From: Gemmatimonadota bacterium
Lineage (GTDB): Bacteria; Gemmatimonadota; Gemmatimonadetes; Longimicrobiales; RSA9
DNA: 32,112 bases
Direction of reading: 5' to 3'
Assembly (NCBI GenBank): GCA_017881445.1
Contig: JADGQX010000024.1
Location: 1-32,112 of the forward strand
Below, one piece after another: positions 19,004 through 22,763 of the stretch. Each line of letters opens with the position of its first letter. The stretch's first letter is position 1. The notes under the pieces are model-generated. The model ran no database searches and had not been told where the DNA came from. It worked only from the letters and a program-made list of their open reading frames with translations. The translations under genes were made by a program, and so were the position numbers.

Positions 19004-19639
19004 CTAGCCAATCGTGCTCAGGTAGTTCCCCAGGATCCGGTTGAGCGCACTCAGCACGGCCAGCGCCGCCGTCTTCAACGGGTCCTCCGTGGTCAGGACG
19101 GCACCGACCAGGCGCAGCGGACCGCCGCTCTCCCGGAAGATCGACACCACAGTGATCTCCTGGTCGAAAGCCCGGATCTGCTTGACCCCGATCAGCCGAA
19201 GCCGGAGCTCGTCCGGCGAGAGCGCCTGCACTGCGCGAACCGTCGCCAGCGCCGCCGTCCGCATCTCCAGCGCCGCGCTCGTCTCGCCCAGCTCCTCGCC
19301 CGTGTGCAGCACCCCGTCCCACTCCAGAGTCACGCGCATCCGCACGTGACCTTCCGGCGCAGGAAACCGCTGAACTCCCACGAATCGCACCCGGTGCCGC
19401 GCGTGTGCCCCCAGCGTCGCCGCCACCTCCACCGGGATGGTGTCCGCTTCCTCCCCCTCCGCCGTCAGGATCGCGCGCGCCTGCTCCTCCAGCATCGCGT
19501 GGTCCACGTCACCTCCGGCCACGATCCAGACACTACCTCTCTCCTCGTCCACCAGGACGCGCTCCACGGCGTCGAGCACTTCGAGCCGCGTGCGCAGCGC
19601 TTGCACCGTGCTCGCGCGCAGAGCGGATAGGCTGGCCAC
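19004..19639 (-). CDS. Conserved-looking hypothetical protein, two-domain
   Basis: GTG at 19639 proposed because the longer ORF (to 19729) would run through a good promoter. Segments LEVLDAVERVLVDEERGSVWIVAGGDVDHAMLEEQARAIL and VRMRVTLEWDGVLHTGEELGETSAALEMRTAALATVRAVQAL...ITVVSIFRESGGPLRLVGAVLTTEDPLKTAALAVLSALNRIL. Stop is 3 nt before the mltD-like start. Confidence 0.75.
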   Translation of the reverse strand: MASLSALRASTVQALRTRLEVLDAVERVLVDEERGSVWIVAGGDVDHAMLEEQARAILTAEGEEADTIPVEVAATLGAHARHRVRFVGVQRFPAPEGHVRMRVTLEWDGVLHTGEELGETSAALEMRTAALATVRAVQALSPDELRLRLIGVKQIRAFDQEITVVSIFRESGGPLRLVGAVLTTEDPLKTAALAVLSALNRILGNYLSTIG

Positions 19640-19781: not shown

Positions 19782-20927
19782 CTAACCTAACCCACTGTGC
19801 GGCTGGAACTTGAGCAGCGCACCCGCACCGTTCATGTCCGCAAGTGCTTGCTGGCTAACGAATTCCACCGGAATCTCCTGCTCCTCCGCCATCCGGATCA
19901 TCACCTCGGCGATGTCCACGCCATCCCGGATCTCACCGCCGCAATAGGGACAGGCGCCGTCGTGACGGGAAAGGAAGAAGCCGCACTGCTGGCACTGCCC
20001 ACCGGCGTTTCGCAGGTCGCGAGCGAGCACCAGGGTGTCCACCTTGCCTTCCTGAAGCTGCTCCAGCGTCTGCTGCACACCGGCGGCGGCGAAGTGCCGC
20101 TGCCGCACCCGGTCGTGCAGCTGCTCGAGCGCACGAGTCTCCTTCTCCTGCTTTCGCCGGCCGAAGAACGGCAGCAACCGCTCTACGACCTCGGCCGCGC
20201 GAGCCTCGCCCGGCCCCGCGGCGGTGTAGACCAACTTCTCCTGGACACTCGGGCCCAGGTCGGACGTGAAGAGCTTCACGTTCTCCTCGGTGCCCAGGAC
20301 GATCAGGTACTCGGGACGGTGTCGGCGATCGAACTCCTCGAGTTCCCGCACGGCTTCCTTGAAGAAGTTCCGCCGCTCCTGTTCCTTGCGATTCTGGTAC
20401 TCTTCGTGCGACGACCCGCTCGCCTGCACCTCGTGGGGCGCGGGATGGCTCTCGGCCGCGAGCCGCTGCTCGCTCTGCACCTGACCGGAGCGCAGCGTCA
20501 GCAGCCAGAGTGAGGTCCGGTCCACGATGGCGACGCCGTATAGCGGGTGGCTCTCGACCACCTCCGCGAGCGGACCGATGATCGGGCGCTCCGCGATCTC
20601 CAGGCGGTTCTGCAGCGGCACCGCCACCTGGTACCCTTCCATCCAGTCGCTGCCGATCTCCGCGTACAGCGCGATGCCCTTGTTCGCCTCCTCGAAGCGC
20701 TCCTCCAGCCACTGTTCCACCCGCGAGAATGCCGCCCCCAGAGCCTCCCTGTGATGACCCTCCCGATCACTGTCCAGCTCCGAGAACCGACCCTTCTGCT
20801 TGGAGAGGAAGACGCCATGCGTGCGCTTGTTGTCCGAGTTCACCGACATGTCCAGGAAGAGTGAGAGGACCTGCTTGCCCGTGAAGGGCCGGTGGATGAG
20901 TCGGTGGATGTCCTCGCGAGAAGCCAT
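19782..20927 (-). CDS. eRF1/Pelota-like bacterial protein (baeRF / Balon-type superfamily) with C-terminal zinc ribbon
   Basis: MASREDIHRLIHRPFTGKQVLSLFLDMSVN... ; middle-domain pattern EEYQNRKEQERRNFFKEAVRELEEFDRRHRPEYLIVLGTEENVKLFTSDL; zinc ribbon CQQCGFFLSRHDGACPYCGGEIRDGVDIAEVMIRMAEEQEIPVEFVS; ends GAGALLKF. The upstream extension of the ORF track (to 21992) overlaps guaB and is rejected. Confidence 0.8.
   Translation of the reverse strand: MASREDIHRLIHRPFTGKQVLSLFLDMSVNSDNKRTHGVFLSKQKGRFSELDSDREGHHREALGAAFSRVEQWLEERFEEANKGIALYAEIGSDWMEGYQVAVPLQNRLEIAERPIIGPLAEVVESHPLYGVAIVDRTSLWLLTLRSGQVQSEQRLAAESHPAPHEVQASGSSHEEYQNRKEQERRNFFKEAVRELEEFDRRHRPEYLIVLGTEENVKLFTSDLGPSVQEKLVYTAAGPGEARAAEVVERLLPFFGRRKQEKETRALEQLHDRVRQRHFAAAGVQQTLEQLQEGKVDTLVLARDLRNAGGQCQQCGFFLSRHDGACPYCGGEIRDGVDIAEVMIRMAEEQEIPVEFVSQQALADMNGAGALLKFQPHSGLG

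Positions 20928-21163: not shown

Positions 21164-22763
<1,600 letters not shown>

Follow-up and report, generated by a model that had tools for sequence, protein, structure and literature searches.

A Balon-like protein of bacterial aeRF1 family 10 with a zinc-ribbon insert and an altered catalytic loop in Gemmatimonadota

Introduction

What does a bacterial protein built like eRF1 and Pelota do when the loop that reads GGQ in aRF1 has lost this motif? The question is raised by a gene on the reverse strand at 20927..19782 of the window, the 32,112-nt stretch of DNA analyzed here, which is one complete contig of a draft genome. The gene encodes a baeRF_family10/Balon-like protein of 381 aa. 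In eukaryotes eRF1 acts as the release factor at stop codons, and the Gln of the motif is the residue required to free a finished protein. Balon, by contrast, is a hibernation factor of idle ribosomes (PMC10901736); features specific to it are a bL27 trap and an HP motif at the decoding centre. We argue below that the protein is probably a Balon-type hibernation factor of bacterial aeRF1 family 10, one that binds in the A site and does not hydrolyse peptidyl-tRNA. Most of this picture is expected from publications of 2019 and 2024, and the protein joins an already described family. What is new is the combination of a GG-aromatic loop with a zinc-ribbon insert, together with further decay of the loop in the window copy.

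Family membership and domain organization

The reading frame is intact, and an alignment of homologues places the ATG at the same position as in relatives. The Pfam model baeRF_family10 (PF18854) matches residues 115-252 with 68.5 bits against a curated cut-off of 27.1 (E 9.5e-19). Families 2, 3, and 5 of the baeRFs match more weakly, and the C-domain model eRF1_3 (PF03465) scores 25.6 bits, its cut-off being 25.8. PF18854 is matched by all 21 aligned members, and Pfam also assigns to it MSMEG_1130, a Balon of solved structure (E 4.6e-36). MSMEG_1130 is likewise the top sequence match in the PDB (7.9e-14 with the single sequence, 5.7e-21 with a profile); the Balon Rv2629 follows close behind, and aRF1 ranks below MSMEG_1130. 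All three NCBIfam models of ribosome hibernation factors match 21 of 21 members, with scores below their equivalog cut-offs; the protein itself scores 93.8 vs 480 bits with the MSMEG_1130 model, 66.9 vs 320 with that of Rv2629, and 46.8 vs 330 with that of AOC03_06830. It is therefore homologous to the described Balons without being an equivalog of any of them. Nor does it qualify as an aRF1/eRF1 release factor, as TIGR03676 gives 44.3 vs 234.7 bits and both GGQ and NIKS motifs are absent. The gene was also considered as part of a defence system and rejected, there being no PADLOC match.

Three domains follow one another on the reverse strand. The N-terminal domain (residues 1-110; 20598..20927) lies by homology on the decoding-centre side. 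It contains a conserved stretch with invariant V29, N33, R35, F40, and L41, and profile alignment to aRF1/eRF1 finds no NIKS motif in it. The RNase H-like middle domain, on the peptidyl-transferase side, is the part matched by PF18854 (residues 115-252; 20172..20585). The C-terminal domain is Pelota/eRF1_3-like (residues 262-375; 19803..20144), and it is here that PF03465 falls just short of its cut-off.

An AlphaFold model built with 21 sequences (mean pLDDT 87, pTM 0.81) agrees with this layout. Its first Foldseek match is ribosome-bound MSMEG_1130 (8v9l), over the full length, with TM 0.81/0.82 and E 1.6e-24. The model gives TM 0.71/0.74 with Rv2629, 0.62-0.66 with the Psychrobacter Balon, at most about 0.5 with full-length aRF1/eRF1 chains, and about 0.22-0.42 with Pelota/Dom34; such global scores depend on inter-domain orientation, and for a predicted model they are evidence of architecture and arrangement, not of function. 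The sequence-only reading of this DNA had proposed baeRF membership, kinship to Balon, an eRF1/Pelota-like domain order, and a C-terminal zinc ribbon. Pfam, PDB and NCBIfam sequence comparisons and the model with its Foldseek matches bear out all four. The structural check that it had named comes out the same way, with an eRF1-type fold that is matched best by Balon and more weakly by Pelota.

Comparison with MSMEG_1130 (8v9j, 8v9l; PMC10901736) shows both shared and separate features. The two proteins have in common PF18854, three domains, a TM of 0.81, and the lack of NIKS and of a complete GGQ. Identity is only about 20%, however; the MSMEG_1130 loop is AGQ whereas that of the clade is GG-aromatic (SGS in the window), and the MSMEG_1130 insert is Cys-free whereas that of the clade is a zinc ribbon. 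Rv2629 and the Psychrobacter Balon AOC03_06830 (8v9k, 8rd8) share the fold, the domain order, and the NCBIfam matches below cut-off, but differ in loop and insert, with TM 0.62-0.74 and 13-17% identity. The release factors aRF1/eRF1 (4af1, 1dt9) have the same domain order and an alignable loop, and aRF1 has a C-terminal Cys-rich minidomain. Unlike them, the clade has neither NIKS nor the catalytic Gln, and global superposition is lower. Pelota/Dom34 resembles the protein in fold and in lacking GGQ, but the match is weak in both sequence and global structure.

Catalytic loop

Profile alignment to aRF1 and eRF1 places Ser170-Gly171-Ser172 in the GGQ columns, within a loop that reads ASGSS. The former catalytic loop thus comprises residues 170-173, S-G-S-S (20409..20420, reverse strand), with Ser172 in the Gln column. 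The claim that GGQ is missing at this site stands; the register first given for the loop (GSS) was one residue late, which leaves that conclusion unaffected.

A comparison of the loop covered 33 zinc-ribbon clade members, no two of them identical. Tyr occupies the Gln column in 23, Trp in 4, Phe in 3, Glu in 2, and Ser in 1, the window copy; Gln occurs there in none of the 33. An aromatic residue at this column (GG[Y/F/W]S) is found in 30/33, and both glycines are kept in 30/33. The relatives follow the pattern GG[Y/F/W/E][S/A], and loop length is invariant among close relatives. The window copy lacks the first loop glycine as well as the Gln. In the tree it is nested in the f1 group as sister to L006 (support 0.98), so that the missing first glycine is most simply explained as a later loss.

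According to Burroughs and Aravind 2019 (PMC6514570), family 10 usually retains the conserved Gln, which the Pfam model does not use as a criterion, and baeRF families without Gln have unconstrained loop lengths. In the sequences surveyed the clade departs from both statements, since its Gln is absent and yet its loop length is fixed in close relatives. MSMEG_1130 is described as lacking GGQ (PMC10901736), and in our alignments its loop reads AGQ. Because this hibernator keeps AGQ, having Gln in the loop does not set release factors apart from hibernation factors, and Gln loss by itself is no mark of a hibernator. The earlier step from a missing GGQ to hibernation or rescue that needs no hydrolysis is plausible, and of these two roles the evidence favours the former. 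Taken by itself, however, the lack of GGQ carries less weight than was first claimed. Hibernation and release factors cannot be told apart by the state of this motif alone. The series GGQ (aRF1), AGQ (MSMEG_1130), GG-aromatic (clade), and SGS (window copy) lets one ask what the catalytic loop does after peptide release has been abandoned.

Zinc ribbon

The C-terminal domain carries a zinc-ribbon insert (19932..20003, reverse strand) in which Cys312, Cys315, Cys326, and Cys329 form CxxC-x10-CxxC. Fifteen of the 33 clade members, from the f3 side of the tree, have Asp in place of the fourth Cys. In the alignment the ribbon occupies the position at which Balon carries its EF-Tu-contacting hairpin, a beta-hairpin inserted in the C domain (PMC10901736). 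Burroughs and Aravind regarded the two-strand insert as possibly a degenerate zinc ribbon (PMC6514570). By analogy of position, the ribbon may take over the hairpin's EF-Tu job.

A GGQ does occur at the start of the ribbon (residues 309-311) and had been considered coincidental, a view that its lack of conservation supports. Relatives have GVQ, GAQ, GSR, GVR, or GGR at this site, and GGQ recurs in one other member only (L014). A relocated catalytic loop at this position was rejected for the same reason.

Distribution and gene neighbourhood

Homologues, nearly all full length, occur in 24 of the 41 genomes searched (own genome counted), so the resemblance is not due to chance. Of 297 genomes sampled from the phylum, 19 have a clade member at E <= 1e-30, mainly in families f1 and f3 and with none seen in family f2; looser family-10 relatives are present in 92/200 genomes. 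Close homologues were found only in Gemmatimonadota. The named relatives, Longimicrobiaceae included, are all metagenome assemblies of this phylum, to which the source of the window therefore very probably belongs as well. A screen of plasmid records for relatives in other phyla gave one from Azospirillum and one from Nonomuraea, both very distant. With this clade, the range of Balon-type factors comes to include a phylum that is mostly uncultured and has received little study.

The upstream neighbour is guaB, encoding IMP dehydrogenase (21164..22744, reverse strand), and this neighbourhood is conserved within the same taxonomic family. Five named loci have guaB upstream; in four of them it is directly adjacent, and in L070 it lies about 1.4 kb off. 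The sequence-only reading had noted guaB and cell-wall genes nearby, and both guaB and a LysM lytic transglycosylase gene are indeed neighbours. In L088 and L089, guaB adjoins a divergent clade member in opposite orientation, and hence the guaB link may predate the f1 arrangement.

The downstream neighbour (19004..19639, reverse strand; likely GTG start at 19639) encodes 211 aa and is linked to the baeRF gene by adjacency only. A gene of this type lies downstream in 12 of 15 named loci. Pfam does not match its product; weak matches to the LeuA allosteric domain appear in 6 of 14 homologues, and the model of the product matches the regulatory domains of LeuA and citramalate synthase. Its N-terminal part is ferredoxin-like and its C-terminal part resembles the LeuA regulatory domain, with no synthase. 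The family ends in a near-invariant ALAVLNATNRxLGNYL, occurs in 213/297 sampled Gemmatimonadota genomes, and seems to be a stand-alone regulatory-domain family not yet described. A near-consensus sigma-70-like site lies between the two genes at 19725-19696 on the reverse strand (TTGACA, 18 nt, TATCTT); as a pattern match only, it may be the downstream gene's own promoter. An obligate operon of the baeRF and LeuA-like genes was rejected in view of this promoter-like site and of the unequal distribution of the neighbour (213/297 genomes) and the clade (19/297).

Proposed role and alternatives

The Balon-type reading builds on homology, architecture, the predicted fold, the absence of NIKS and Gln, and conservation, all of which are directly supported. 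When cells are stressed or starved, the protein would move into the A site of the ribosome and form a tRNA-shaped block. Its N domain would lie at the decoding centre and leave the codon unread, NIKS being absent, while the loop of the middle domain would extend to the peptidyl-transferase centre and, for want of the catalytic Gln, would leave peptidyl-tRNA intact. The C domain and the zinc ribbon would face EF-Tu, like the Balon hairpin. As a result, the ribosome would stay idle and intact until growth resumes. The gene neighbours count against hibernation, as they are housekeeping genes and not a stress operon. Neither hpf nor raiA is adjacent to the gene; hpf lies on another contig of the genome, beside an HPr kinase gene. 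The near-invariant loop, with GG plus an aromatic and of fixed length in close relatives, is a further point against, as it suggests some particular activity at the peptidyl-transferase centre and not mere decay.

A Pelota-like rescue factor would also bind in the A site, in this case of stalled ribosomes, and promote their splitting or recycling without hydrolysis. Burroughs and Aravind proposed such a role for baeRFs (PMC6514570), and Pelota has the same fold, is itself without GGQ, and is matched both by profile (3j15, E 1.8e-5) and by Foldseek. The nearest matches by sequence and model are nevertheless the Balons, with Pelota/Dom34 at the low TM values given above. Bacteria are not known to have ABCE1 or Hbs1, which also argues against rescue of this kind, and we consider it quite unlikely. 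A lower probability still attaches to peptide release by another route, in which the glycine loop would hydrolyse peptidyl-tRNA and dispense with the standard Gln. Close relatives do keep both glycines and a constant loop length, a pattern tied to active families (PMC6514570), and acVLRF1 models match weakly, but the Gln is missing in 33/33 and the window copy is one glycine short as well. It is just as improbable that the baeRF has been repurposed off the ribosome, for example as a regulator of purine synthesis through guaB or together with the LeuA-domain-like neighbour. Adjacency speaks for such a role, since guaB adjoins the baeRF gene in f1 genomes as well as, differently oriented, in two f8 genomes, and the LeuA-domain-like gene is downstream in most named loci. 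All three ribosome-facing domains are kept and conserved, however, and the neighbour family is common without the baeRF clade.

In one form of the Balon-type reading, tentative and rather unlikely, the clade would have kept loop length and glycines and exchanged Gln for an aromatic residue that stacks as a plug of the peptidyl-transferase centre, with the zinc ribbon replacing the EF-Tu hairpin. If true, the aromatic plug would represent a distinct mode of hibernation and mark a route by which release factors turn into hibernators.

Other family 10 proteins in Gemmatimonadota

Other baeRF10-like proteins of the phylum (e.g. L106, L096) also match PF18854 and have a loop without Gln, but their loops differ, and the zinc-ribbon site holds a Cys-poor hairpin or no insert. 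L106, L105, L097, and L104 represent a second lineage of baeRFs, whose loop is longer and also has Trp where Gln used to be (GWGE). L143:4766-6067 on the forward strand (G000 contig C234) encodes a second family-10 baeRF, which is divergent and has a Cys-rich insert of its own; the gene is convergent with a double universal-stress-protein gene.
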